From Corynebacterium sp. TAE3-ERU16 (GTDB taxonomy: Bacteria > Actinomycetota > Actinomycetes > Mycobacteriales > Mycobacteriaceae): DNA of 64,000 nucleotides. A model generated the notes under the pieces. It made no database searches. It had not been told where the DNA came from and was given only the letters and a program-made list of their open reading frames with translations. Positions 8,015 through 26,791 of the stretch are shown here, piece after piece. The translations under genes and the position numbers were made by a program. The DNA lies in contig NZ_JAHUTN010000004.1 in the NCBI RefSeq assembly GCF_019209935.1, positions 186,001-250,000 on the forward strand, given 5' to 3'. Each line of letters begins with the position of its first letter. The stretch's first letter is position 1.

Positions 8015-9639
8015 TTGCGGGCTCCTAACTGTTCGACCGCGAAGCCGGCGTGACGCGGGCGTTCCGGATCGTATTTCTGCGGGGTGGTGATCTCGAGCTG
8101 CAGGTCGGGGTCGACGCCGAAGTCGGAGCCGGGAGGACCGACCAGGGCGATGTTGCCGCGCCACGGGACGAGACTCATGACGACCGCCGCGACGACGATC
8201 AGCCCGACGACGCCCCAGCCCCAGATGTTGATCTGGAGGTCGGTGTAGCCGCCGTAGTTCTCCCGGACGAGGCTGATGAGCTCCTGGAGGAGGGTGTAGC
8301 CGAGAACGATGGTGGTGATGTTCACGACGCAGATCCGCCACAGGTTGCCGACCCGGAAGCTGGACACCGCGTTGAGGTGCAGTGCCATCTCGTCCGCACG
8401 ACGGAGAATCCAGTCGAGGATGATGATGGCGACCAGTGCGATGCCGACGATGCCGATGTTGTTGACGAACTTGTCCATGATGTCGAGAGTCGCGAGACCG
8501 GAGGTCGTGGCGAACAGCGTCAGGGAGATCAGTGTCATGACGACACCGACACCGAGGGCCGTGGCCTTGCGCGGCAGGTTGAGCTTGTCCTTGACCGCGG
8601 AGACGACGACCTCGAGGAGGGAGAACAGTGACGTGAAGCCGGCGACCGTCAGGCAGCCGAAGAACATGACGCCGAAGACCGGTCCAAGCGGCATCTGGTT
8701 GATGATCGTCGGGAAGGCGATGAACGCCAGACCGATTCCGGATGTGGCGACCTCGTCGACGGCGACGTTCTGCTGCACGGCCATGTAGCCGAGAGCGGAG
8801 AAGACGCCGATGCCGGCGAGAACCTCGAAGGAGGAGTTCGCGAACGCGGTCACCAGGCCGGTGCCCGTCAGGTTGGTGCGCGGCTTCAGGTAGGAGGAGT
8901 ACGTCAGCATGATGCCGAAACAGATCGACAGGGAGAAGAAGATCTGGCCGTACGCGGCGACCCACACGCCCGGATCGCTCAGCGCGGCCCAGTTCGGGGT
9001 GAAGAAGGCGTCGAGGCCCTCGGCCGCGCCCTCCAGGGTGACGGAGTAGCCGACGACGAGGATGAAGAGCACCGTCAGGATCGGCATGAACACCTTGGAG
9101 ATGCGTCCGATGCCCTCGTCCACGCCCATCGCGAGAACGATGATGGCCAGAATCCACACGAACGCCAGCGCGAGTGCGATCTGCGGGACGATGTCCATCG
9201 AGATCATCTGGGTGCTGTCGAACCTGAGGAAGTCCTCGAAGAAGTAGGTGTTGGGGTCGCTGCCCCACGCCGTGTTGAAGGACTTCAGGGTGTAGAGCGC
9301 CGCCCAGCCGATGATTGCCGCGTAGTAGATCGTGATGATGAAGCAGACGCCGACCTGCACCCAGCCGACCGGCTCGGCCCAGGTCCGCAGACGGCGGTAG
9401 GCGAGGGGAGCGGAGCCACGGAACCGGTGGCCCATGGCGTAGTCAAGGAAGAGGAGGGGGATACCCGCGGTGATCAGAGCCACCATGTAGGGGATCAGGA
9501 ATGCTCCGCCGCCATTTTCATAGGCGACGTAGGGGAAGCGCCAAATATTACCCAGGCCCACGGCGGAACCGATCGCCGCCAGCAGGAACGCTATGCGGGT
9601 GGAGAATACTTCGCGACCTTGAGAAGTGTCAGCAGCCAT
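8011..9639 (-). CDS. metP: Sodium-dependent methionine/alanine transporter MetP (NSS family)
   Basis: 542 residues, about 11-12 membrane segments. The neurotransmitter:sodium symporter signature GNIWRFPYVAYENGGG is at about residues 30-46 and the unwound TM6-like segment FFSLSICFGIMLTYSSYL follows at about 235. It imports methionine and alanine with Na+ across the plasma membrane. It is coupled to metS downstream. Substrate assignment rests on the MetPS gene pair and is an inference. Confidence 0.88.
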   Translation of the reverse strand: MAADTSQGREVFSTRIAFLLAAIGSAVGLGNIWRFPYVAYENGGGAFLIPYMVALITAGIPLLFLDYAMGHRFRGSAPLAYRRLRTWAEPVGWVQVGVCFIITIYYAAIIGWAALYTLKSFNTAWGSDPNTYFFEDFLRFDSTQMISMDIVPQIALALAFVWILAIIVLAMGVDEGIGRISKVFMPILTVLFILVVGYSVTLEGAAEGLDAFFTPNWAALSDPGVWVAAYGQIFFSLSICFGIMLTYSSYLKPRTNLTGTGLVTAFANSSFEVLAGIGVFSALGYMAVQQNVAVDEVATSGIGLAFIAFPTIINQMPLGPVFGVMFFGCLTVAGFTSLFSLLEVVVSAVKDKLNLPRKATALGVGVVMTLISLTLFATTSGLATLDIMDKFVNNIGIVGIALVAIIILDWILRRADEMALHLNAVSSFRVGNLWRICVVNITTIVLGYTLLQELISLVRENYGGYTDLQINIWGWGVVGLIVVAAVVMSLVPWRGNIALVGPPGSDFGVDPDLQLEITTPQKYDPERPRHAGFAVEQLGARK

Positions 9640-16006: not shown

Positions 16007-16078
16007 TCGGTCGGCCTGGGAATGTTCGCGCGTAAAGCGAAGGTTGTCTCACGTGGCGTATCAAGCCGTGGACCCTGT

Positions 16079-16504
16079 CTAGATAGTTGGGGCACTCGTG
16101 GCTTGGTCGGGGGTCCAGCTCGAGTTCGAGTTTTCTGCCGCGATCCCTTTCGCTCGGCGGTAGAGGGCGCCCGCGTATGTGTCGACCGTTGCCGTCCATG
16201 CACGCTGGATGATGTCGCTGACATCCGCAGTCTCGCCGCCCTCCGGCATCGTATACGTCAAGACGCGCTTGAAGTCATGGCCGGCGTTGATGTTCGTATC
16301 GATGTTAGGCAGCCGACCATCGAGTTGAAGAGTGTTGAGTAGTTTCATGAATTCGGGATCAATCCACATCTCGCACAGTGACGCTGACTCTGTGAACCGG
16401 GCACGGCCGGTCTCGGAAAATTCCTGAACGAGCGTCTTAAGCTCGGGGTGGACTCGGTTTGCGTGCTCGGCAAGGTCGGGGAAGCTGAGGGTCAGCTGCG
16501 GCAT
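16079..16504 (-). CDS. Hypothetical protein next to the integrase
   Basis: 141 residues from the ATG at 16504, which has CAGGAG 6 bases upstream; a longer start at 16588 is possible. The protein is soluble, begins MPQLTLSFPDLAEHANRVHP, has no signal peptide or membrane segment, and I do not recognise it. It is divergent from the integrase across 118 bases, the usual place for recombination-directionality or regulatory genes, but no DNA-binding motif is evident. Confidence 0.6.
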   Translation of the reverse strand: MPQLTLSFPDLAEHANRVHPELKTLVQEFSETGRARFTESASLCEMWIDPEFMKLLNTLQLDGRLPNIDTNINAGHDFKRVLTYTMPEGGETADVSDIIQRAWTATVDTYAGALYRRAKGIAAENSNSSWTPDQATSAPTI

Positions 16505-16622
16505 GGCCGTCTCCTGGGGTGCCTTGTGCGTTTGGTTAGATGGCTCAACTCTATCACTATGCACACTGATGGTGATATTATCAGTCATGGACGGCGCTTA
16601 CGTCAGAGGCTAGTCTGGGTAC
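16505..16622. promoter_or_regulatory. Divergent promoter region upstream of integrase, candidate attachment site
   Basis: Contains an inverted repeat ACTGAT-N9-ATCAGT (16565-16585) and a -10-like TAGTCT at 16611-16616 that ends six bases before the integrase ATG, which suggests leaderless transcription. Attachment sites of large serine recombinases usually lie next to the gene, so attL may be here; the exact core cannot be read. Confidence 0.4.
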
Positions 16623-18182
16623 ATGAACGAGCGCTCCACTTCACACCGCAAAGCAGCGATCTACCTTCGCATCAGTCAGGACCGCGAGATGGACGGGCTC
16701 GCCATCGACCGTCAGCGCGAGGACTGCGAGAACCTCGCCCGGTTCCGGCGCTGGGACGTCATCGAGACCTACGTGGACCAGTCCAAGAGCGCCACCGACC
16801 GGACCGCGATCCGCCCGGACTACGACCGCATGGTCGCCGACTACCAGTACGGTCGGTTCGACGCGATCATCTGCTACGACCTTGACAGGCTCACCAGGCA
16901 GCCCCGGCAGTTGGAGGACTGGATCGATGCTGCTGAGTTGCGAGGCCTTGCCCTCGTCACGGCCAACGGAGACGCGGACCTCTCCACCGACGGCGGCCGA
17001 ATGTACGCCCGCATCAAGGCCGCCGTCGCACGAGCTGAGATGGAGCGCAAGAGCGCCCGTCAGTCCGCAGCCCAGCGTCAGCGCGCCATGCAGGGGCGTG
17101 CTCCGAAGGGCATGCGCCCACTCGGCTACGCCGTAGACGGCGAAGTGATCCCCCACGAGGCTGAGGCCGTGAGGGCGATCTACGACCTGTTCACGAGGAT
17201 CGAGCACCCCGAGTCGCTGCGATCGCTCGCCCGGGCTCTCAGTGGCACCGAGCAGATCGATGGGATCACACCACTTCCCAAGCACACGCACACCGTGAGC
17301 GTCGAGCGCGCCACCGCCCGCGCGCAGCAGGGCCTCGAACCTAGGCCGATCGTCGAGGACGGTCCGTGGTCTCCCTCGACCGTGCTGGGCATCCTGCGGA
17401 ATCCGCGCTACGCCGCGCTGAGCACGTACACACCGAAGTTCGCTCAGGCGGACGGGAAGCGCCGCCGGATGTGGAAGGCACAGATCCTTCGTGACGACGC
17501 CGGAGAGCCTATCCGGGGGCAGTGGGAACCAATCGTCGACGATGAGACATGGTGGAAGGCGCAGCAGGTCCTCGACGACACCGAGCGCGTCACGAACACG
17601 TCTGGCTCCACGAAGCGAAAGCACCTCGGCAGCGGACTGTATCGCTGTGGTTATGTCCTCGACGAAAAGACCGGCGAGACCTGCGGAAAGAAGGTGACCG
17701 GGGCACCGCGCGGGTACAAGTGCGCGGGGCACATCGTGCGCTCGGGCGCCGCCATCGATGACTTCGTCACGAAGGTCATGGCCAAGCGTCTCGCGCGCAA
17801 GGACGCGACCGCAATGGTTGAGGCGCCGGATGGTGGAGCGCACGCCGCAGGCCTCGACGCCGCCATCAGTGACCAGCGGGCGCGGATCCTCCGCGCCGAG
17901 GCCGACTACGACGCCGAGATCATCGAAGCGCGCGACCTCAAGCGCGTCCGCGACGGAGCCGAGGCGCGCATCCAGGAGCTGGAAGCCGAGAAGCTCATGC
18001 GTGGCCGTTCTGGCGCCCTGGCCCCGATCCTGGGCGCGGAAGACCCTGCCTCAGCATTCCGGGAAGCGTCACTTGACCTCCGCCGTCAGACCATCGACAC
18101 CCTCGCCACGATCACGCTTCTCCCGCAGCCGCGCGGGCGCAAGGGGTTCAGGACCGAGTCCGTCGTCGTCGACTGGAGGTAG
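16623..18182 (+). CDS. Large serine recombinase / integrase
   Basis: 519 residues. The N-terminal resolvase domain has YLRISQD with catalytic Ser18 and Arg16, and YDLDRLTR at about residue 86. The recombinase domain follows (RAPKGMRPLGY at about 158). A zinc-ribbon-like part with spaced cysteines (YRCGYVLDE, GETCGKK, GYKCAGH) spans about 340-375, then a coiled coil from about 415. This is the architecture of large serine integrases, which insert DNA between short att sites without host factors. Length is in the usual range. Confidence 0.92.
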   Translation: MNERSTSHRKAAIYLRISQDREMDGLAIDRQREDCENLARFRRWDVIETYVDQSKSATDRTAIRPDYDRMVADYQYGRFDAIICYDLDRLTRQPRQLEDWIDAAELRGLALVTANGDADLSTDGGRMYARIKAAVARAEMERKSARQSAAQRQRAMQGRAPKGMRPLGYAVDGEVIPHEAEAVRAIYDLFTRIEHPESLRSLARALSGTEQIDGITPLPKHTHTVSVERATARAQQGLEPRPIVEDGPWSPSTVLGILRNPRYAALSTYTPKFAQADGKRRRMWKAQILRDDAGEPIRGQWEPIVDDETWWKAQQVLDDTERVTNTSGSTKRKHLGSGLYRCGYVLDEKTGETCGKKVTGAPRGYKCAGHIVRSGAAIDDFVTKVMAKRLARKDATAMVEAPDGGAHAAGLDAAISDQRARILRAEADYDAEIIEARDLKRVRDGAEARIQELEAEKLMRGRSGALAPILGAEDPASAFREASLDLRRQTIDTLATITLLPQPRGRKGFRTESVVVDWR

Positions 18183-18319
18183 ACCCCCTCGTTGGGTAGC
18201 CACGCGGAGCGTGGCCGGGAGACCTCTTGAGAGCGGCGACGTGGCGTAAGCGCGTCGATTCACCGAGCACGACTGCCTGTCGCGCCCGCCGCTCTCCTCA
18301 ACCACGGAGGAGACCCGCC

Positions 18320-18874
18320 ATGACCACCCGAACGAACACCGACACCACGCCCCGAGCCTGGATCGGCTGCCTCGCCTGCTACAACAACGCTCGTCTCGTA
18401 GGCGAATGGTTCGACGCCGAGACCGCCGACGAAGTCACCCTTGGTGACGTCCACGGCGGCGCTCATCGCGTGCGCCCTGGATGCGAAGAACTGTGGGTCA
18501 TGGACCACGAGAACATCCCCACCTCGGGCGAGATGAGCCCGTCGGAAGCCGCAGAGTGGGCTCGCGTCCTCCTCGCCGCCCCCGAACACCAGCGCGAGGC
18601 CCTGTGCGCTTGGGTGACCTCCGGTAGCTACGTCGCAGAAGGCACCGGAGACCTGCCGTCGGTTCCCGACTTCGAAGAGCGGTTCTGCGGCACGTGGGGC
18701 AGCTTCCGAGACTACGCCGAGACTCTCGCCGAGGAGATTGGCCTCATCCCGAAGGACGCGCCGGAGGAACTTGCGCGCTACTTCAACTGGGATGCCTGGA
18801 CCCGCGACCTCGAACACGACTACACGGTCGTCCGCGCCGACGCGATCTCCGTGTACGTCTTCAGGGACCTGTGA
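18320..18874 (+). CDS. ArdA-like antirestriction protein
   Basis: 184 residues from the ATG at 18320, which follows GGAGGAGA at good spacing. WIGCLACYNNARLVGEW near the N-terminus, FCGTWGSFRDYAETLAEE in the middle and YFNWDAWTRDL near the end match the ArdA family. The protein is very acidic, as expected of DNA mimics that block type I restriction (and some modification) enzymes when an element enters a new host. The next gene starts 11 bases downstream. Confidence 0.88.
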   Translation: MTTRTNTDTTPRAWIGCLACYNNARLVGEWFDAETADEVTLGDVHGGAHRVRPGCEELWVMDHENIPTSGEMSPSEAAEWARVLLAAPEHQREALCAWVTSGSYVAEGTGDLPSVPDFEERFCGTWGSFRDYAETLAEEIGLIPKDAPEELARYFNWDAWTRDLEHDYTVVRADAISVYVFRDL

Positions 18875-18885
18875 AGGGAACGATC

Positions 18886-19092
18886 ATGAGTGCTGAGTCC
18901 AACGCCTACAGCCACGCCGAATCGTTTCGCTGGTGGGTCGGCAACCCCGAGATGAGCGATGAGGAGGCTCACCTCCATGACCTGCTCGCCCTGCACAAGG
19001 CAACCGTCGAGCTGATTCGCCAGCAGCGCGACCTTCTCGGGTATTACGACACCGATGCCGAACTGTTCGGCGATGACCCCGACGTCGACTGA
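18886..19092 (+). CDS. Small acidic hypothetical protein
   Basis: 68 residues, starts MSAESNAYSHAESFRWWVG, with helical EEAHLHDLLALHKATVELI and a very acidic C-terminus. It lies 11 bases after ardA with GAAGGGA upstream of the ATG and just before a strong terminator, so it belongs to the ardA transcript. I do not recognise a family. Confidence 0.65.
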   Translation: MSAESNAYSHAESFRWWVGNPEMSDEEAHLHDLLALHKATVELIRQQRDLLGYYDTDAELFGDDPDVD

Positions 19093-19098
19093 GTTCAG

Positions 19099-19137
19099 AG
19101 TGCCCGTAGCTTCGGCTACGGGCACTCACTTTTCTTC
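19099..19137. terminator. Bidirectional terminator between ardA operon and mob operon
   Basis: Perfect 12-bp stem (19099-19110 with 19115-19126) closed by a TTCG tetraloop and followed by CACTTTTCTT. It lies between two convergent transcripts and can end both. Confidence 0.85.
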
Positions 19138-19140
19138 CGA

Positions 19141-20085
19141 CTACCAGCCCCGATAGCTCTCGTACAGCTTCTTTCCGAGCCACCAGAGCAGCCAGCCGAA
19201 CAGAGCGCACCCGCCTAGGGCGGCGAGGGCAATGAGTGCCTTCGCCCACCAAGCACTCGCGTCGGCGAACGAGTCCCAGGCCCATCCGAGCAGCGGTCCG
19301 AGGCCGAGCATCTGCGTGATCCCACCAACCATCCCCGTGAGCATGATGAACGCGACGGTGAACGGGAGGAGGGCAAGGCACATACGACCGACCGTCGCCC
19401 AGGTGACCTTCGCCGAGAGCCGCTCGACTCGCCGCTCGGCCCGTCCGACAGTGCTGACCACTTCGCGGGCCCGGTCGGTCACCTCGGCGAGCTTCTCGGT
19501 GCCGAGCCTGACCACCCGCTCTTCGAGCCCCTCGACGGTCTTTTCGACCCTCTGGACGGGAACCTCGACGGCCTTTGCAAGTCGGTCATCGAGTACCTTC
19601 ACAGCGTGCTCGGTGAGCCTGTCCGTGTCGATACGGACGTGGCCGCGCTTGCGCACGGCCTCGGCGAGGTCAGCCGAGGCCGAAGCCGTCATCTTCAGCT
19701 CCTCGCTGATCTTCGTCGTCATCGAGTACGCGGCCAGGTCCGCCCGGGTCACCGAGGACCCGCCGGGCAGCTTCACGACCTCGCTGCTGCTCAGCTGCTG
19801 CGCGACGGCGCTCAGCGTCTTCTCGATTTCGGTCAGCCGCCTCTTCGTCTCGGCGTCGAGCGGCAGCGTGGAGGGCAACTCGAGCCGCGGCGAGGTCGAC
19901 AGGCGATCCAGCCGTATCGTCTGCTCCTCGTCCATCACCTTCACGTACCCGGTCAGGTCGGCGACGGCCTTCGTCAGCCGCTCGATCTGCTGCCTGTCGG
20001 CGTCGCGCTGTGAGATCAAGGCCTCCAGGAGCTCGGTAGTCTTCTGCTGCTCGTCGGCCTGCTTGATCCTGTCCAGTGCTCCCAT
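19141..20085 (-). CDS. Coiled-coil membrane protein of the mobilization operon
   Basis: 314 residues from the ATG at 20085 (AAGGGACAG upstream). A long coiled-coil region (about 1-225, rich in Glu, Lys, Leu and Arg with DRLTKAV-like heptads) is followed by two membrane segments at about 235-262 and 280-305, ending KKLYESYRGW. Such proteins follow relaxase genes in actinobacterial mobilizable elements and may link the relaxosome to the membrane; that role is inferred. It overlaps the relaxase frame by 416 bases in another frame. Confidence 0.7.
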   Translation of the reverse strand: MGALDRIKQADEQQKTTELLEALISQRDADRQQIERLTKAVADLTGYVKVMDEEQTIRLDRLSTSPRLELPSTLPLDAETKRRLTEIEKTLSAVAQQLSSSEVVKLPGGSSVTRADLAAYSMTTKISEELKMTASASADLAEAVRKRGHVRIDTDRLTEHAVKVLDDRLAKAVEVPVQRVEKTVEGLEERVVRLGTEKLAEVTDRAREVVSTVGRAERRVERLSAKVTWATVGRMCLALLPFTVAFIMLTGMVGGITQMLGLGPLLGWAWDSFADASAWWAKALIALAALGGCALFGWLLWWLGKKLYESYRGW

Positions 20086-20908
20086 GAGCCTGTCCCTTCT
20101 GTGAGTGGTAGTCAAAGATCTCTTGAGCACCTTCGGCGGTGAACTCGGGTGTCAGCGCCGAGGCCTTCTTCCGGCCGAGCTTCCCGTTGTCATCCCGGCG
20201 CATCTTGTAACTCCAGCCGTCGCGGTTCGTCACCGCGAGCGTGACCCCGCGCTCGGCGAGGACGTGCTCGAACGCCCCGCGATTCGTTGAGCGCGAGTCG
20301 GTCAGTGCGTCATAGACCTTGTCCCCGAGGGCCTGCTCGAATCCGCCCGGCGCGAAGTCCTCGCGCCGCAGCTCCCAGTCGGGCTTCGGTTCCGCGGGAT
20401 CGGGGAGCATACGCAGACCCTCGTCTGCCATCAGCTCGTCGTTCAGCTGGCGCAATCCGTGCTTCCACGATGTGTACCGCTGGAGGCTCTTACCGGTGAG
20501 GTTGTCGTGGTTGATGACCAGGATGTGTGCATGCCCGTGACCTCCGGCGGAATCAGAGTGCACCGCGACCATGTAGTCAGCGCTGTGCATGCGTTCCGCG
20601 AGTTCGACGGCCACGTCCCGGATGCGCTCAAGGTCGGCCTGCGAGGTCACGTCGAACTCGTCAGGGTGGAACGCCAGAACGTAGCTCTGAAGTTGGTTCG
20701 TCCGGCCATGAGCAGCGGCGTGCGCCTCAGCACACGCGATGAACTCCGCCGGAGTCGACCCGCCGTCGACCATGGACATCGCATACGCGGCGGCACGCGT
20801 CGATCCGACCCTGAGCAGCTCCCTGCGCACCTCAGGGTCACGCCCGTAGAGGATGTACCCCACGGCTCCTGCAGCGTTGGTCGAGGGGCGGACGTTCACG
20901 GTGCTCAT
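19670..20908 (-). CDS. Relaxase / mobilization nuclease
   Basis: 412 residues as an open frame. The relaxase three-histidine motif is seen as GGHGHAHILV at about residue 124, and the N-terminal VNVRPSTNAAGAVGYILYG fits actinobacterial MobA/VirD2-like relaxases. Residues to about 270 look like normal protein. After QEIFDYHSQKGQ the frame is Arg/Ala/Asp-rich and lies over the downstream coiled-coil gene, so the true C-terminus may be less conserved or chance-open. The start overlaps mobC by 4 bases. It nicks oriT and pilots the strand during transfer. Confidence 0.85.
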   Translation of the reverse strand: MSTVNVRPSTNAAGAVGYILYGRDPEVRRELLRVGSTRAAAYAMSMVDGGSTPAEFIACAEAHAAAHGRTNQLQSYVLAFHPDEFDVTSQADLERIRDVAVELAERMHSADYMVAVHSDSAGGHGHAHILVINHDNLTGKSLQRYTSWKHGLRQLNDELMADEGLRMLPDPAEPKPDWELRREDFAPGGFEQALGDKVYDALTDSRSTNRGAFEHVLAERGVTLAVTNRDGWSYKMRRDDNGKLGRKKASALTPEFTAEGAQEIFDYHSQKGQAHGSTGQDQAGRRAAEDYRAPGGLDLTARRRQAADRAADEGRRRPDRVREGDGRGADDTAGSPVDLAAARVALHAAARRRDEEAADRNREDAERRRAAAEQQRGREAARRVLGDPGGPGRVLDDDEDQRGAEDDGFGLG

Positions 20909-21585
20909 GTCCGCGTCCGATCGCCGAGCGAGGCACGCACCTCGTCCACCGCAACCATCACCTCGTGAAGGAGGCCGTCATCGACGGCAGCACTCTTGCG
21001 GAGCGCCTGGTTCAGGTTCACACCAACTCGACGCAGCTGCTCTACTGCAGGAACAAGAGACGTAGGCGTCGCCTCCTTCACTCCCGCGTTGTTCTCCAGC
21101 TGATCGACCTTCGAGGATCTCGAGTCCAGCGCGTCGAGCATGACGGCACGAGCCCATGCGCTCGGCTTGACTCCGAGCACGTGGGCACGGCGGCGGATCG
21201 CATCGCGATCAGCCACCGTCAGCCGCACGTCGAGAGAGACCTCCCGACGACGGCTGTTCCGAGGCTCCACCGGAGCCTCGGCCGACTCTGCCCTCTGCGC
21301 AGCACCACGACCGGTGTTCACCTGGGAATCGTGGTGCAGCTCCGCTGCCAGGGCCGGGTCTTCCGCACACCCCTCCGTACGAGCACGACCAGCGCTGCTT
21401 GGGGAGTCGGGCTCGCTCTCCGGGGCGTACGGAAGACGGCCAGCAGGGTTCTTGTCGGACATTTCGCTGGCGCTCATGTCCTCCAAGAACCGCTGGCCCT
21501 CGTCCTCGGTCGCTGCGCTCCCTGCGGGCGAGGGGGTCCCGGGACGCTGGCGCAGGTCCCGGATCGAAGTCGTCAGCCGTTCCAC
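20905..21585 (-). CDS. mobC: Mobilization accessory protein MobC
   Basis: 226 residues. The first 110 are low-complexity and hydrophilic. The C-terminal half has a ribbon-helix-helix-like start (VSLDVRLTVADRDAIRRRA) and the MobC signature AVEQLRRVGVNLNQALRK at about residue 180. MobC helps the relaxase open DNA at oriT. It overlaps the relaxase by an ATGA junction and the upstream gene by 13 bases. Confidence 0.85.
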   Translation of the reverse strand: MERLTTSIRDLRQRPGTPSPAGSAATEDEGQRFLEDMSASEMSDKNPAGRLPYAPESEPDSPSSAGRARTEGCAEDPALAAELHHDSQVNTGRGAAQRAESAEAPVEPRNSRRREVSLDVRLTVADRDAIRRRAHVLGVKPSAWARAVMLDALDSRSSKVDQLENNAGVKEATPTSLVPAVEQLRRVGVNLNQALRKSAAVDDGLLHEVMVAVDEVRASLGDRTRT

Positions 21586-21896
21586 GGTGCCGCCTCCTCA
21601 TGCTCGGGATCGACGGTCTGCGAGGCAGTCCCGTCGTTCACCGATCCCGAAGACGATGCCGCCTTCTTCGCACGCCTTGACCTCTTCGCCTTCTCTGCCT
21701 CCAGGGCATCGGCCGCCTCCTGAGAGAGCCGGTCGTAGAGGCCGGGGCTCTGGGCGCGCAGCAGATCGATGACCTTCCCGTCGATACGGCGCTGCTCGGC
21801 AGCGGCGGCACGCTTGAGCTTTGCGATGCGCTCGGACGCACGGCGGCGCTCCTGCTCGATCAGCTCGTCGAGGTTGGTCGTGGTCTTGTTGCTCAT
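21573..21896 (-). CDS. Small helical protein in the mobilization operon
   Basis: 107 residues, starting MSNKTTTNLDELIEQERRRA, highly charged and predicted mostly helical, with a basic AKRSRRAKKAA patch before an acidic tail. It overlaps mobC by 13 bases. The family is not recognised. Its position suggests a DNA-binding or relaxosome accessory role, but this is inference. Confidence 0.65.
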   Translation of the reverse strand: MSNKTTTNLDELIEQERRRASERIAKLKRAAAAEQRRIDGKVIDLLRAQSPGLYDRLSQEAADALEAEKAKRSRRAKKAASSSGSVNDGTASQTVDPEHEEAAPWNG

Positions 21897-21898
21897 GG

Positions 21899-22231
21899 TC
21901 AGTTCTCCTCTTCGTTCAGGGTGTCGCCCTCTCCGAGGGCCATTGATACGATCTCGGCCGGAAGATCGAGGGCAGCGATGATCGCGTCTTCGGGCACACC
22001 TTCGTCTCGTGCTTCCTGCACGTCCTCACGGAGCCGGTCGAGCACCGCGCCAAGCACGAGTGCCTCAGAGCGCAGGGACCCCTCGATCGTGGTGCGCCTG
22101 GGGTCGCGGGCCTGCCAGGCGTCGCCGGGAGCGCGTCCACTGATGAGCCAGTCCGTTAACGCGACGCGCACCGTGTTCCAGTCCTGCATGTCCTGGATCA
22201 GGTCGTCGAGCATCTGGTCGTCGTTCTTCAT
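21899..22231 (-). CDS. Small acidic hypothetical protein in the element operon
   Basis: 110 residues, starts MKNDDQMLDDLIQDMQDWNT, acidic, probably helical, no membrane segment. It lies 2 bases before the next gene and 28 bases after the polymerase, so it is co-transcribed. I do not recognise it. Confidence 0.6.
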   Translation of the reverse strand: MKNDDQMLDDLIQDMQDWNTVRVALTDWLISGRAPGDAWQARDPRRTTIEGSLRSEALVLGAVLDRLREDVQEARDEGVPEDAIIAALDLPAEIVSMALGEGDTLNEEEN

Positions 22232-22259
22232 GGGCGTTCCTTACGGGTCGTTGAGCTGG

Positions 22260-25253
22260 TCAGTACGGGAGCCGGTCGGCGTCCGTGGGGTGTTCGCCGG
22301 GAGACATGGACTTCATCCGGCCGAGGTATGGGTCGAGCGTGTCGATGGGGAGCATCTGGGACGCCCGCTCGGGCCGGCGGGCGTTGTCCCAGTCGCCGCG
22401 CGATACGGTGCCGAGCCCCCACTCGCCGAGCCAGTCGAGTCGCTCGGTGATGCTCAGCGAGCGGTCAGCGAGCGTCGGGATCGAGACCACACCCTGGCGA
22501 TGCGCCATTACGATGGACATCAGGACAGCGCGCTGCGGGGTCCTGATGCGGCGGCCCTTACCGTGCGCGAACTTCAGGTTCCAGTTGCGCCACTGAGCGA
22601 CGGTGCGCAAGCATCCCGTCTCGGCCATGTCGCGGGCGATCTGGCGAGCGCGCAGGCAGTCCTCGACTCGCTCCCACGGGTGCGTGGTGAAGGTCGCAAT
22701 CTCGTGGGTGGTGCCGTCGGGCAGGGGCACCATTTCGGGCGTCATGGAGGGCATGACGGGCCTGCGCTTGAGGTCGTAGTCCATCGAGACCGAGCGTTCG
22801 ACCCGGGACGGCAGGAAGTCCTTCCGGCCCTCCGTACGAGACAGCTCCTGGAACGACGGAAACCTGGTGTATCCGTTCGGGACCCGTCCTTCGCGGGTCA
22901 CGACGGAGGCCAGCAGCAGCTCACGGTCCTTGGCGCTGTCAGGGACAACGCCCTTTGGGGCCTTGAGGCCGTTGTGAGCGCACACGCCGCCGAGGTCGAG
23001 GGAGACGTTCCCACGCGTCGTGAAGTTCACCAGGCCGGACTGCGCATGCTTGGCTTCCCAGATAGACGGATCCCCGGTCAGAGCGGTCCTGGCGTCGCTG
23101 AGCACCTCCTTCAGCCCGTAGAGGTCCAGGGCGGCGACCTCGGTCACGGTGGCGTTCGTGATGAAGCCGTCGGTGGTCACTGAGTAGACGTCCCTACCGT
23201 TCTCGTTCAGCTGGTTCATCGTCGCCAGCAGCTGTGCACGCACCAGAGACGTGGTGGTGGCCGCGTGGTAGGGGCTGGACACGGCGGAACCGCCGACGTT
23301 GCCCATCTCTTGCGCACGTGCATCCCAGGACCGCTGCTCAGCAACGTCCTGCGCCGTCTTGCCGTAAATGCTGTTCACGGCGGTCTTGAGAGTCTGCTCC
23401 TCCAGCGAGCCCTTGCCGAACAGCGCCTTGGCCGCGTTGCGGTCGTCGATGAGCTGCTTGACGCCATGCCGGAGGGAGAGACTCGGGCCACCGTTCTGCC
23501 GCAGCTCACGACCCAGGTACCCGATCTGGCAGTGCACCTCAGCACCGAGTCTGAGCGCGAGCCACAGCTCAGGACCGCACACCCACGTCCCGGCGACGCC
23601 CTCGGACGTGCGCGGATAGATGAGCGTCCCATCGGCGACGATGGGCAGGCACGGGTACAACACGTCAGCCGGGAATGCGAAGGAGACGAACCCGACGAAG
23701 GGCGTCGTCGCCGTCGGAACGTCATCGATGGTGATGACGCGTTCGTGCGCGACATCCTCGATAGCACCGGCCTCCCAGTCGAGGTCACGCACCAGCGCCA
23801 TCGCCGTCGGGTACGCGTTCCGTGCGTCGATGTCCACGGTCGGGAAGGCGTAATAGCCCGGCATTGGGCACGAGTTCAAGCCACCGTGGTAAGCGCGAGC
23901 GAATGCCGTGGACAGCTGAGCTGCTGCGCCGTCGAGCGGGTTGCGCCCCCGCTTCGCGTAGAAGCTCAGCCGGTCGCCTTCCTCGACGGCCTCGACACCC
24001 TCGTCCTCGTCCACCAGCCCAGCGAACAGCCGACGGAACTCAGCAGGAGAGGACGCTTCGAGGTAGGCACTGCCCGCGTTGACGAGCGCGGCAGCGGCAC
24101 CACCGCTGAGCGTGATCGGCGGGACGGTGCCGTCGCCCCACAACCGGGCGAGGTACTCCACGACGATGACGGCGTCGTTGACGCCGTACTCCAGGAACTC
24201 CGCCAAGTGTTCGCGCCGGTAGTCGGTCATCCTGGAGATCCAGCCATCCGGCACGTCGAGCTTCGCGACGCCGCACGCCTCGCCGAGCGCTGTCAGCGTC
24301 TTTTTCCCAGCAGGAGCCTGCGACATGGTGTCGCGCACGGTCACCGACAGGCTCTGCCACCAATGCCCGTTCTCGTTGCCGCGCTGCGAGCGAAACGGCA
24401 GGAGACTAACAAGGCCACCAGCAGCTGAGGTCAGGCGGACGAGGACGTCCAGCTCCCGAGCCTTCCCGCCCGAGCGGAACGTCGTGAGGTCTGCTGCCCC
24501 GTAGTGGCAGGCAAGGACGAGGGGAACCCTCAGCCTCGCCAATGCCTCGCGGCGCTCCTCCCAGTCCTCAGACCAGAACATGCCACGGGGCACGCCTCGC
24601 GAACCCACCGCATCAGGCACCAGAGGCGAGCGCCACAGCTCAGCAGCAGCGACTACGGTCCACAGTGCCGTGTGCAGCGAGATACGCGCGCCGGAGCCCA
24701 ACGGAGGCAGGATGACGACCTCGACCATCACCGACGGATCGAGTGGATCCGGCACGGCGAACTGGTAAGAGTCGACGACCCGAGCGCCGCCCACGATCGT
24801 GAACTCCGTGTCTAGGCCGACGACGATCCCGGCGCGGCCCGTGCCCATCGCCTTTACCGACGAGAGATCGCCGAACGCCGTCGCGGTTACGGACTTGCTC
24901 GCGACGACAGCGCTCGGCGCGAGCGGCGCCGAGCCGGTCTCAGAACCACGGTCACACGGTCGAGACTCGGGGCTCCCCATAGCGGCTTGTGACCGTGCCC
25001 GAATATCTTCCCCACGACCAGGGGAAACACCCGTCTCGGAGGGGCCTAGTAAGTGTGACAGTTCGGAACTGTCACATCCGGCGGCCGGATTCTCGGATTC
25101 TGACTCCCCACTGGTTGAGACATCCTTGGGCACGGTTGCACCACCGCTGACCGCTTCTCGGGCGCGACGTCGCACGAGCACCTCGAAGACGATGCCGCGC
25201 CGTGCGCCATCAGTGATCTCGTGACGCGCCCAGCCGAAGGCCGCGGCGCTCAT
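22260..25253 (-). CDS. Family B DNA polymerase, pipolin-like
   Basis: 997 residues. Residues 1-135 are low-complexity. A 3'-5' exonuclease domain has Exo I GLDTEF (Asp148/Glu150), an Exo II region at about 248-256 and Exo III YGVND (Tyr356, Asp360). The polymerase domain has motif A DARNAYP (Asp476-Pro482), motif B KTAVNSIYG (Lys623-Gly631) and motif C SVTTDGF (Asp695). This set fits protein-primed or primer-independent (piPolB) family B enzymes; the TTDG form of motif C, recalled as typical of piPolB, favours the latter. It probably copies the excised element. It overlaps the HTH gene by 4 bases (ATGA). Confidence 0.85.
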   Translation of the reverse strand: MSAAAFGWARHEITDGARRGIVFEVLVRRRAREAVSGGATVPKDVSTSGESESENPAAGCDSSELSHLLGPSETGVSPGRGEDIRARSQAAMGSPESRPCDRGSETGSAPLAPSAVVASKSVTATAFGDLSSVKAMGTGRAGIVVGLDTEFTIVGGARVVDSYQFAVPDPLDPSVMVEVVILPPLGSGARISLHTALWTVVAAAELWRSPLVPDAVGSRGVPRGMFWSEDWEERREALARLRVPLVLACHYGAADLTTFRSGGKARELDVLVRLTSAAGGLVSLLPFRSQRGNENGHWWQSLSVTVRDTMSQAPAGKKTLTALGEACGVAKLDVPDGWISRMTDYRREHLAEFLEYGVNDAVIVVEYLARLWGDGTVPPITLSGGAAAALVNAGSAYLEASSPAEFRRLFAGLVDEDEGVEAVEEGDRLSFYAKRGRNPLDGAAAQLSTAFARAYHGGLNSCPMPGYYAFPTVDIDARNAYPTAMALVRDLDWEAGAIEDVAHERVITIDDVPTATTPFVGFVSFAFPADVLYPCLPIVADGTLIYPRTSEGVAGTWVCGPELWLALRLGAEVHCQIGYLGRELRQNGGPSLSLRHGVKQLIDDRNAAKALFGKGSLEEQTLKTAVNSIYGKTAQDVAEQRSWDARAQEMGNVGGSAVSSPYHAATTTSLVRAQLLATMNQLNENGRDVYSVTTDGFITNATVTEVAALDLYGLKEVLSDARTALTGDPSIWEAKHAQSGLVNFTTRGNVSLDLGGVCAHNGLKAPKGVVPDSAKDRELLLASVVTREGRVPNGYTRFPSFQELSRTEGRKDFLPSRVERSVSMDYDLKRRPVMPSMTPEMVPLPDGTTHEIATFTTHPWERVEDCLRARQIARDMAETGCLRTVAQWRNWNLKFAHGKGRRIRTPQRAVLMSIVMAHRQGVVSIPTLADRSLSITERLDWLGEWGLGTVSRGDWDNARRPERASQMLPIDTLDPYLGRMKSMSPGEHPTDADRLPY

Positions 25254-25546
25254 GACGCACTGCCGAAGATCGTGCTGAGGCGACGAACCTGGACGTCGCT
25301 CAGCGGGGGAGCGGAGGCGGCGAGCCGTTCTGCGGCGGCTTCGATCTCGTCGAAGGTCGCACGCTTGACGGTCACCGCGAGAGCGTCGAGGTCGGTGCGC
25401 AGAACTTTGACGCGCGAACCGACCTTGACGGCGGGCAGCCGGCCGTCAGCGATGTACTTCCGAAGTGTGGAGTAAGCGGAATAACCCTCGGCGGCTGCCT
25501 GCTGGAGGGTAAGAAAAGTGGACTGGACGTGGCGTGTCGAGGACAC
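25250..25546 (-). CDS. Excisionase-like HTH protein
   Basis: 98 residues from GTG. An HTH of the excisionase/MerR-like type is seen at about residues 12-55, with LTLQQAAAEGYSAYSTL, recognition-helix region KYIADGRLPAVKVGSRVKV and then LRTDLDAL. It is the first gene of the operon and probably binds element DNA, acting as directionality factor or repressor. Its Shine-Dalgarno GGGAG lies in a small hairpin (25550-25564) immediately before the start. Confidence 0.8.
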   Translation of the reverse strand: MSSTRHVQSTFLTLQQAAAEGYSAYSTLRKYIADGRLPAVKVGSRVKVLRTDLDALAVTVKRATFDEIEAAAERLAASAPPLSDVQVRRLSTIFGSAS

Positions 25547-25549
25547 AGG

Positions 25550-25564
25550 GACTCCCTAGGAGTC
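25550..25564 (-). promoter_or_regulatory. Hairpin sequestering the ribosome-binding site of the HTH gene
   Basis: GACTCC and GGAGTC arms with a 3-nt loop. On the minus strand the GGGAG that serves the GTG at 25546 is formed by the loop edge and 3' arm, so folding would hide it. Confidence 0.55.
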
Positions 25565-25596
25565 AATACCCGTGTACTCGTGGCCGCCTCTACGAT

Positions 25597-25777
25597 CCCT
25601 CACCTACCGATGAGGGCGGCTGCGCTCTGGCCTCTGTCCTCGTCGCTGGAGCGCCAGGCCCGACGAGTGTGGTTCGCAATCGGCCGGTCTACCCGAGCGC
25701 GTCCATCTCGCTCGGAACCCGTGACTCTGGCCTTTGACCTCGCGCCGGGAGTCACGCCGGTACCGCGAGTGTGGGTC
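25597..25777 (-). ncRNA. Two tandem double-hairpin units in the operon leader (structured RNA candidate)
   Basis: Unit A: short hairpin CCCTCA/TGAGGG (25597-25616), then GCGCTC/GAGCGC (25622-25627 with 25649-25654) around a 21-nt loop. Unit B: short hairpin CCGAGCG/CGCTCGG (25693-25715), then GTGACTC/GAGTCAC (25721-25727 with 25749-25755), also around a 21-nt loop. The loops align exactly 100 bases apart and share TGGCCTyTGwCCTCG (plus strand). After each long hairpin comes CGAGTGTGGkTC (25664 and 25766). Stem letters differ but pairing is kept, which argues for a selected fold. If transcribed from the candidate promoter at 25962-25967 it would be leader RNA of the HTH-polymerase-mob operon. 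No known riboswitch was recognised. Confidence 0.55.
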
Positions 25778-25843
25778 ACCAGTGGCAGTCGGAGGAGCCC
25801 ATCCCTTGTGCCCGACACGCGACCCTGCCCTGTTATCCGAAGG

Positions 25844-25860
25844 TGGCGGGTCGCCCGCCA
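25844..25860. repeat. Inverted repeat in the operon leader
   Basis: TGGCGGG-TCG-CCCGCCA, 7-bp perfect arms with a 3-base loop. It lies between the candidate promoter and the tandem hairpin units, and could be a further structural part of the leader. Confidence 0.5.
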
Positions 25861-25935
25861 GTCCCTCTTACCCCGGTGTGCTCGTGCTGGGGTCTTCATC
25901 TTTTCCGCCGGATGAGCACTGCTCCGGTCGGGGTA

Positions 25936-25990
25936 GTAGTCGACGTTCGACTACGCCATCAATTATAGCAAGGTGGGACGCGGTTTGGCA
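25936..25990 (-). promoter_or_regulatory. Candidate promoter and operator of the HTH-polymerase-mob operon
   Basis: On the minus strand a perfect TATAAT lies at 25967-25962, with a weak -35 (TGCCAA) about 17 bases upstream. A perfect palindrome GTAGTCGA-CGT-TCGACTAC (25936-25954) covers the expected transcription start, a good place for autoregulation by the HTH protein. The palindrome may instead be part of the right attachment site. Confidence 0.5.
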
Positions 25991-26214
25991 GTTGAGAGCG
26001 TAAGACATGGAGATCAACACATAAGTAATGTTCGGAACGTGGTGGACTTCAAGTTCAACGTTTAGCCAACTGTCCATCACTGCTTCTGTGATCTCCGTCC
26101 CGCGCCGCACCCGTGCTGGGCACCGGGCAAGATGTGGAACCGGGGCCCTCCCGGATCATGGACCTGGACTTTAACGCCTGGCGTCAATGACGGATTCCGT
26201 TATACACTGCTGAT
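25955..26214. other. Right flank of the element, region before higB
   Basis: No complete gene. A plus-strand frame of 42 codons without a start (25940-26065) ends NVVDFKFNV and stop with coding-like third positions, and may be the tail of a gene cut by integration. An 8-bp inverted repeat GGAGATCA ... TGATCTCC (26009-26016 and 26089-26096) brackets this tail. The right end of the element is probably somewhere in 25.93-26.10 kb. Confidence 0.35.
26172..26206 (+). promoter_or_regulatory. higBA promoter and candidate HigA operator
   Basis: A -10-like TATACA at 26201-26206 lies 8 bases before the higB GTG. Just upstream is the palindrome CGTCA-A-TGACG (26182-26192) nested within TAACG ... CGTTA, placed where the antitoxin could repress its own operon. 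Confidence 0.5.
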
Positions 26215-26496
26215 GTGATCAGATCGTTCGGCAACAGGGACACCGAGCATATCTGGCAGGAGAAGTACGTCAGGAGCATCGATCGGACGGTTCAGCGGAA
26301 GGCCCTCAGGAAACTCGAGCTCATCCACGCTGCCAAGGATGTTTCGGATCTGCGAATACCTCCGGGTAACCGGCTGGAGCGCCTGATCGGTGACCGACGA
26401 GGACAATACAGTATTCGTGTCAACGCCCAGTGGCGTATCTGTTTCATCTGGAGGAAGGGAGGTGCGGACAATGTCGAACTCGTCGACTATCACTGA
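26215..26496 (+). CDS. higB: HigB/RelE-family toxin
   Basis: 93 residues from GTG. IRSFGNRDTEHIW at the start, LRKLELIHAAKDVSDLRIPP in the middle and YSIRVNAQWRICFIW near the end match the HigB toxin fold, with the Arg and Trp of RINxQWRxCF. HigB is a ribosome-dependent mRNA endonuclease. It overlaps higA by 26 bases, with toxin before antitoxin as usual for higBA. Confidence 0.92.
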   Translation: MIRSFGNRDTEHIWQEKYVRSIDRTVQRKALRKLELIHAAKDVSDLRIPPGNRLERLIGDRRGQYSIRVNAQWRICFIWRKGGADNVELVDYH

Positions 26497-26791
26497 AACC
26501 GATCTGATCAGTCCGATTCACCCCGGGGAGATTCTCATGGAGGACTTCATCGAGGGCTTCGGCATCACCCAGAACAAGCTCGCCGTGGAGATCGGTGTTC
26601 CGCCCCGGAGAATCAATGAGATAGTCCACGGTAAGCGGGGTATCACCGCCGATACCGCGATCCGGCTGGCTCGATACTTCGGTACCTCCGAGGAGTTTTG
26701 GATGAACCTGCAGGCGAACTACGAGCTACGTATGCGGCGGAGGGCCCTGGGTGGATCGATCGCCGGTATCAAGCCTCTGCAGGTCGCGTGA
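26471..26791 (+). CDS. higA: HigA antitoxin, XRE family
   Basis: 106 residues from the ATG at 26471, preceded by GGGAGG. HPGEILMEDFIEGFGITQNK and EIGVPPRRINEIVHGKRGI form the HTH characteristic of HigA; ADTAIRLARYFGTSEEFWMN follows. It neutralises HigB and represses the operon. A longer in-frame start at 26390 lacks a ribosome-binding site. Confidence 0.92.
   Translation: MSNSSTITETDLISPIHPGEILMEDFIEGFGITQNKLAVEIGVPPRRINEIVHGKRGITADTAIRLARYFGTSEEFWMNLQANYELRMRRRALGGSIAGIKPLQVA

Follow-up and report, generated by a model that had tools for sequence, protein, structure and literature searches.

The closest published analogue of the region described here, among the papers compared, is the REx-C module of Pseudomonas plasmids, which in the passages cited is a structured region of 318 nt before rep, with a promoter and translation signals (PMC5304414). 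According to the same passages, REx-C is exchanged among non-homologous replication modules. It has three stem-loops, often includes a leader peptide and is credited with a putative antisense RNA, and its authors contend that it does not form a pseudoknot with the sequence flanking rep (PMC5304414). The leader that we describe resembles REx-C, as so characterized, in being a structured region that precedes replication genes and appears to be exchanged among modules. It differs in its tandem pair of units, each with a possible pseudoknot, in its closing helix and possible loop-loop contact, and in preceding an excisionase-like gene in elements on actinobacterial chromosomes or contigs.

Two other kinds of leader RNA invite comparison. 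A pseudoknot in the rep leader RNA of IncI-type plasmids affects translation; there it is a single pseudoknot next to the rep start, and it is blocked by an antisense RNA, whereas the possible pseudoknots of the present leader lie within each unit. In large riboswitch and T-box leaders a closing helix encloses the structured 5' leader, and a hairpin over the ribosome-binding site comes next. The present leader appears to share that order of parts, a closing helix and then a hairpin covering the ribosome-binding site, but it has no Rfam match, and in our survey it occurs only beside genes of mobile-element type.

The element that carries the leader also recalls the pipolins. Plasmid pipolins are said to carry relaxases and resolvases (passages of PMC9710591), and for the pipolins of E. 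coli tyrosine recombinases are named (passages of PMC9710591 and PMC7385651). In pipolins, as far as those passages go, and in the present element alike, a family B polymerase resides on a mobile element with recombinase and mobilisation genes. The same pipolin passages mention no structured leader (PMC9710591, PMC7385651), and the present leader occurs also without such a polymerase.

The element, its predicted promoter and its presumed ribosome-binding site

The window, the whole stretch of 64,000 nucleotides that was analysed, contains a mobile element at about 16078-26066, the limits being those of similarity to the related loci L022 and L040. A serine recombinase gene (16623..18182, plus strand) lies at the left end. 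On the minus strand the element encodes a MobA/VirD2-type relaxase (19670..20908), a NikA-like mobilisation accessory protein (20905..21585), a 997-aa family B-like DNA polymerase (22260..25253) and, heading the operon, a 98-aa excisionase-like HTH_17 protein (25250..25546); it also holds ArdA. The leader is flanked by the HTH gene on one side and by the element's right end on the other. The polymerase matches no Pfam or NCBIfam family. It matches a PHROG DNA polymerase family (1.5e-7) and is related to plasmid polymerases, including that of S. epidermidis NC_005006 (25.7% identity, 2e-39). Since S. epidermidis is named among the hosts of plasmid pipolins in the passages cited (PMC9710591), we infer that the element is pipolin-like.

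A minus-strand operon promoter, CTGCCA-18-TATAAT, is predicted at 25962..25991 (10 of 12 matches; one such site was found, against a mean of 0.1 in shuffles). By eye, a -10-like hexamer stands at the same place in all seven loci with sequence there (L018 ends before it), the weakest being TAAAGT in L044. In each of the seven it lies, again by eye, 6-7 nt before a palindrome, GTAGTCGA-N3-TCGACTAC (25936..25954), which is operator-like and is located at the expected transcription start. Over eight loci, 3 of the 8 palindrome pairs are compensatory, and there are 3 GT and 4 AC cells. At the other end of the region, a hairpin on the minus strand, GACTCC-TAG-GGAGTC (25550..25564), covers the presumed ribosome-binding site of the HTH gene: at each of the eight loci, read by eye, TGACTCC and then a GGAG-type site immediately precede the start codon. 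This hairpin has no compensatory pair, and 44 of its 48 cells are standard. The sequence-only reading, an earlier one made from the letters of the window, had placed the structure in an operon leader, and the predicted promoter and its counterpart in relatives agree with that position. Judged by sequence only, this order, first a structured domain and then a hairpin covering the ribosome-binding site, would make the leader riboswitch-like.

Predicted fold of the leader and its covariation

What does the leader look like? The earlier reading described two tandem units, each with a short and a long hairpin, at 25597..25777. All four stems are present as it gave them: in unit 1, CCCTCA/TGAGGG (25597-25602/25611-25616) and GCGCTC/GAGCGC (25622-25627/25649-25654); in unit 2, CCGAGCG/CGCTCGG (25693-25699/25709-25715) and GTGACTC/GAGTCAC (25721-25727/25749-25755). 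The 21-nt loops of the long hairpins (25628-25648 and 25728-25748) are likewise spaced by exactly 100 (repeat D1), and CGAGTGTGG recurs 102 apart (repeat D2). The extent was underestimated, however, as the real span is from about 25550 to 25954, far past 25777. The 21-nt loop is indeed present and conserved, but it is more than a loop: pairing is possible between its 3' half and the sequence that flanks the hairpin on the 3' side, CTCGTCG with CGACGAG in unit 1 and CTCGCG with CGCGAG in unit 2, so that each unit can form a pseudoknot. A unit thus consists of hairpin A, the 5' strand of stem B, a linker of about 11 nt of the TGGCCTnTGnC type, and hairpin C, whose 5' strand is the 3' half of the former loop. 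Hairpin C has a short bulge, mostly of 3 nt, and an apical loop that can pair back to the 5' strand of B; the long stem of the earlier reading is therefore the pseudoknot helix B.

The structured domain, an 85-pair structure over eight loci, would span 25567..25935 of the predicted minus-strand transcript and be closed by helix P1 (TACCC/GGGTA, 25567-25571/25931-25935). In unit 1, hairpin A1 (25597..25616) has 4 of 6 pairs compensatory, and B1, the GCGCTC/GAGCGC stem and pseudoknot partner of C1, has 2 of 6 by hand segmentation and 1 of 6 in the MAFFT alignment. Hairpin C1 (25639..25667) is built of CTCGTCG plus CTG, an apical loop GAGCGC, CAG, a GCC bulge and CGACGAG; its lower 7 pairs are invariant, its upper 3 include 2 compensatory pairs by hand segmentation and 1 by MAFFT, and it is present in the plus-strand MFE of the window. 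In unit 2, hairpin A2 (25693..25715) has 92.5% of cells paired over 5 pairs and no double change; B2, the GTGACTC/GAGTCAC stem that is the pseudoknot partner of C2, has one compensatory pair among 7 (T-A replaced by C-G in two of the eight loci); and C2 (25739..25769), built of CTCGCG plus CCGG, the apical loop GAGTCACG, CCGG, a 3-nt bulge and CGCGAG, has 3 of 10. By hand segmentation 12 pairs are compensatory across the two units. An example is C1 of L044, which reads CTCGTCG-GGG-(ACGCACG)-CCC-ATCT-CGACGAG against CTCGTCG-CTG-(GAGCGC)-CAG-GCC-CGACGAG in the window, the apical loop in parentheses: the 5' strand of B has been altered to match the new apical loop at 5 of 6 pairs.

Downstream of the units on the plus strand, helices G (25784-25787/25826-25829) and H (25788-25792/25812-25816) each have one compensatory pair. 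Helix F (GCGACCC/GGGTCGC, 25819-25825/25848-25854), which crosses G, has 100% of cells paired, with one-sided changes only. Hairpin D (ACCCCGG/CTGGGGT, 25870..25893) has 3 of 7 pairs compensatory and is terminator-like on the plus strand of the window. Hairpin E (25909..25926) has one compensatory pair, and 37 of 48 cells over the 6 pairs tested are Watson-Crick, the innermost not pairing. The loops of D and E may contact each other through GTGCTC/GAGCAC (25878-25883/25914-25919), where 2 of 6 pairs are double-changed and 100% of cells are paired. A further helix, P2 (CGGCCGG/CCGGTCG, 25681-25687/25924-25930), is possible with weak support: none of its 7 pairs is double-changed, its 3' strand overlaps hairpin E, and its predicted probability is about 0.01 on either strand.

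How strong is the case for a selected fold? For the window alone the folding energy is no better than that of shuffles (z -0.02 on the plus and -0.35 on the minus strand), so the case rests on the relatives. The MAFFT alignment used (A2) has eight rows; five of them, counting the window itself, share 94.9% or more identity with the window across 371 columns. In it 97.5% of the cells of the 85-pair fold, counted with P2 and without hairpin E, are standard pairs; nearly all of the pairing is kept in the window and its seven relatives. Double changes occur at 18 pairs, against a mean of 4.3 +/- 1.7 in shuffles (0 of 500 reach 18) and 1-3 in slid versions, although the fold was chosen on the same alignment used to test it, which favours the fold, and related sequences can exceed the shuffled count even without structure. 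The changes are spread over 11 of the 15 helices, the four without any being lower C1 (invariant), P2, A2 and F.

With the window as reference, 17 of the 21 double-changed cells come from L044, 3 from L045 and 1 from L022. In the MAFFT alignment L044 has 19 pairs changed on both sides, 17 of them double-compensated, and 8 of 85 pairs non-standard; permutation leads one to expect 5.4 double-compensated pairs, and 0 of 5000 permutations reach 17. For L045 the 3 double-compensated pairs were reached in 12 of 5000 permutations. In L043 both partners have changed at 2 pairs, neither of which is still standard, and 5 pairs are non-standard. The counts over eight loci, with the L044 permutation, support the claim of a selected fold with compensatory changes. 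We note that the pseudoknot-free RNAalifold consensus, in which both partners have changed at 16 of 122 pairs and the covariation term is only -2.62 kcal/mol, picks the B stems and not the C hairpins. In most of the eight sequences several helices, including the C hairpins, also have a low predicted probability whichever strand is folded.

Relatives of the leader and the genes that move with it

The region is carried by seven other genomes and is 66-96% identical there: L022 and L040 are of the window's genus, L017 is Kocuria varians, L018 is a Janibacter MAG, and L043, L044 and L045/L046 belong to one genus within the order searched. The samples searched overlap. The leader was found in 3 of 242 genomes in the genus search, window included, in 2 of 396 in the order of G360, and in 3 of 38, one of them new, in the genus of G1224; a covariance model search of the family of G1224 matched 3 of 47, none new, and a class search with the L044 leader found 1 of 384, the window itself. 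A phylum sample gave 5 matches among 396, one being the window and four being short (21-40 bases). After reading, the short ones were taken as chance; three lie in the first long hairpin and one in the tail of unit 2. The last (L029:1501-1530, 30 bases, 90% identical, E 2e-4) is from a distant genome and an unrelated-looking place, and against Rfam the L029 stretch has two weak miRNA matches, below gathering. Among six loci found through the polymerase in genome contigs, two (L017, L018) have the leader, L019-L021 have another leader, and L016 ends too early to judge.

A model of the unit finds two units in each of the eight leader loci; 12 of the 16 unit sequences were used to build it, so that those matches arise by construction, and the four left out differ from unit 1 of the window only at the first base or two. 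In eight related loci (L019-L021, L023-L027) it finds no unit except for a weak match, E 0.011, within the L019 polymerase gene; five more matches, with E 0.64 or more, fall elsewhere in the window, L044 and L046. No plasmid or phage homologue of the window leader, and no plasmid homologue of the L043, L045 or L044 leaders, was found by blastn. Four pattern hits on viral contigs were judged unrelated by eye, a stricter pattern giving none, and a search for close relatives of the polymerase found none on viral contigs. Rfam 15 gave no match in the whole window at the gathering threshold and none in 25400-26100 at E <= 1 with permissive filters; the leader matches no family in that library.

Which genes accompany the leader? 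Compared with the window, L022 and L040 have a mobilisation region of 92% and 93% identity, an HTH-leader block of 88% and 90%, and a polymerase of only 38%. As an observation on the same pair of loci, the polymerase and neighbouring sequence (21905-25244) are replaced while both flanks stay about 88-93% identical, which by comparison of the loci is best read as a cassette exchange between elements. By tblastn, the polymerase of L017 is 84% and that of L044 56% identical to the window's. The earlier reading's link to a family B polymerase is not general: the leaders of L043 and L046 are followed by an HTH gene (55% and 42% identical), and no polymerase like that of the window was found there (tblastn, 19 kb fetched). 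Downstream in L046 is a D5-like primase-helicase (DUF5906, Pox_D5, D5_N; PHROG DNA primase 2.7e-78). The large downstream proteins of L043 and L046 are 33% identical over 361 residues and weakly relaxase-like (0.18 and 0.0012, below cut-off). A 450-aa ORF of L043 resembled a plasmid Rep protein by eye, but its match to Pfam Rep_OBD (E 0.16) is far below cut-off, and it has no PDB or plasmid match. The operons that begin with the leader thus encode one of two types of polymerase, a D5-like primase-helicase (L046) or the product of an unassigned gene (L043), and the same control region before non-homologous replication genes would be an exchangeable module of the REx-C kind.

In all six comparisons made, the leader is better conserved than the HTH gene next to it. 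Nucleotide identity with the window, given first for the leader and then for the HTH gene, is 95.4% and 85.9% in L022, 94.9% and 89.1% in L040, 95.7% and 87.8% in L017, 96.0% and 87.8% in L018, 87.2% and 62.4% in L043, and 79.5% and 66.2% in L045-L046; L044 was left out because its HTH gene is truncated. The small ORF after the L044 leader (L044:4622-4873) keeps, by eye, only the apparent C-terminal part of the HTH protein, and L044 retains leader and polymerase though the HTH part of the first gene appears lost. In L021 and L019 (9380-9740 in each) unrelated leaders occupy the same place, with a promoter-like TTGACY-N17-TAGRMT and a hairpin near the start codon (by eye); different leader types seem interchangeable.

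RNA or DNA, strand and function

The earlier reading offered either an RNA or a folded DNA. A selected fold is supported, and neither the G.T and A.C deviations nor the pairing probabilities clearly favour one strand. By hand segmentation the units, read on the plus strand, have 1 G.T and 4 A.C cells; the other helices, with the palindrome and the ribosome-site hairpin left out, add 15 G.T, 7 of them from one P2 pair, and 2 A.C. The totals are 16 and 6, or 9 and 6 without P2, and over the 85 pairs of the MAFFT alignment 16 and 8. The two kinds of deviation are not clearly unequal. Pairing probability is higher on the minus strand for P1, C1, F and D, higher on the plus strand for A2, B1 and G, and near zero on both for P2. 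The predicted promoter and the TGACTCC/GGAG context close to the start codon, on the other hand, favour the minus strand.

We think that there is about an even chance that the region is a 5' leader RNA of some 400 nt that controls expression of the replication-mobilisation operon. The fold is kept across different replicases and diverged HTH proteins, and it lies between the predicted promoter and the ribosome-binding site, so that an exchangeable leader RNA fits best. Transcription would start at the 25936-25954 palindrome. The RNA is predicted to fold into two tandem hairpin-plus-pseudoknot units, with a possible loop-loop contact, within the closing helix, and this fold might decide whether the hairpin over the ribosome-binding site opens. 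The leader would in this way control the excisionase-like first gene, and hence the replication genes behind it.

Could the fold be one of DNA instead? A site that folds when single-stranded, as a single-strand, replication or transfer origin in mobilisation or replication, is an unlikely candidate. G.T and A.C deviations of similar order would be expected of it, and the 25936-25954 palindrome behaves likewise; the elements carry relaxase or weakly relaxase-like genes; and a single-strand origin recognised by the host could serve elements with different replicases, as the leader does. Differing replicases argue, however, against a polymerase-specific origin, and where a locus shows both features, the leader has promoter-like sequence on one side and the ribosome-binding site on the other. 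A transfer origin should be inherited with its own relaxase. L043 and L045/L046 keep the leader at 87% and 80% identity where tblastn (E 1e-3) finds no relaxase like that of the window, and L021 is the converse, sharing 16078-25510 at 90%, relaxase included, and having a different leader; a relaxase-matched transfer origin is therefore disfavoured. Pseudoknots, moreover, are unusual for origins of these kinds.

An RNA from the plus strand, whether a structured RNA in its own right or one antisense to the leader of the same operon that sets copy number, as in counter-transcribed-RNA plasmids, we regard as about equally unlikely. The P2 pair is G.T on the plus strand in 7 of 8 loci (A.C on the minus) and A-T in L044, so that P2, if real, favours plus, and the deviations in helix F are solely G.T on plus. 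Against this the units' excess of A.C over G.T (4 to 1) speaks for minus. A terminator-like hairpin with a T tract is found on the plus strand at 25870-25903 (one, against a shuffle mean of 0.6), but its reading as a terminator is weakened by L044, where the T tract is missing, and by the position of hairpin D inside the closing helix. In antisense control systems loops usually diverge; here the linkers are conserved and the stems vary, which suggests a partner that recognises the RNA, or tertiary contacts within it, in preference to antisense pairing. A consensus scan found no plus-strand promoter. Published exchangeable control modules of similar size do carry a putative antisense RNA in the passages cited (PMC5304414). 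The weakest alternative, a diverged protein-coding region with incidental complementarity, is most improbable: open frames cross the leader in the window (25529-25915, plus, 128 aa; 25600-25899, minus, 99 aa), but the frames are shifted by one-base indels that distinguish the loci (against the window, L043 has three, and L045 and L044 have more), and the double changes preserve pairing.

Returning to the leader RNA, a partner that reads the linkers would be a host factor or small ligand and not the replicase, and the leader would be an exchangeable control module, with different replicases joined to the same leader. A bolder proposal, which we make tentatively and with less assurance, is that the leader belongs to an undescribed class of large structured RNA, in which pseudoknotted units in tandem are locked by a closing helix and a loop-loop contact. 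Such an RNA would act as a plug-in controller for the replication of mobile elements; it would have been joined to two kinds of pipolin-like polymerase, a D5 primase-helicase and another gene, and would read a host signal and not the replicase. A literature search, mostly at the level of titles, which leaves absence unproven, recognised no description of this leader. If a conserved and exchangeable RNA does head these replication operons, it offers a concrete 400-nt object to test. Replication timing in pipolin-like and related actinobacterial integrative elements is not described in the pipolin passages cited (PMC9710591, PMC7385651). The leader would also be a second case, in a different phylum and with a different fold, in which the control of replication has evolved as a module apart from the replication enzymes.

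Some observations concern the element's surroundings and its other segments. The antitoxin of type III toxin-antitoxin systems is a tandem-pseudoknot RNA; this candidate was set aside, as the present units are about 100 nt and no evident toxin gene precedes the HigBA-like genes on that strand. Those genes (26215-26791; HigA by NCBIfam, HigB by position and by eye) lie directly past the right end of the element. The right end itself, 26025-26066, reads in several loci like the C-terminus of a coding sequence (..GTGGTGGAnTTCAAGTTCAACGTnTAG) and may be the attachment site used by the serine recombinase. Near the 5' end of the polymerase gene, and in frame with it, is a segment of about 140 bp (24949-25089) that contains the palindrome TGTGACAGTTCGGAACTGTCACA. 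Its counterparts in L020 and L023, 76-77% identical, are inverted and stand outside the polymerase gene; it looks like a small mobile or regulatory segment. In L020 the TGTGACAGTTCGGAACTGTCACA-palindrome segment is flanked by an exact repeat of 93 bp (9055-9147 and 9322-9414), which by eye reads like the start of an ArdA gene.
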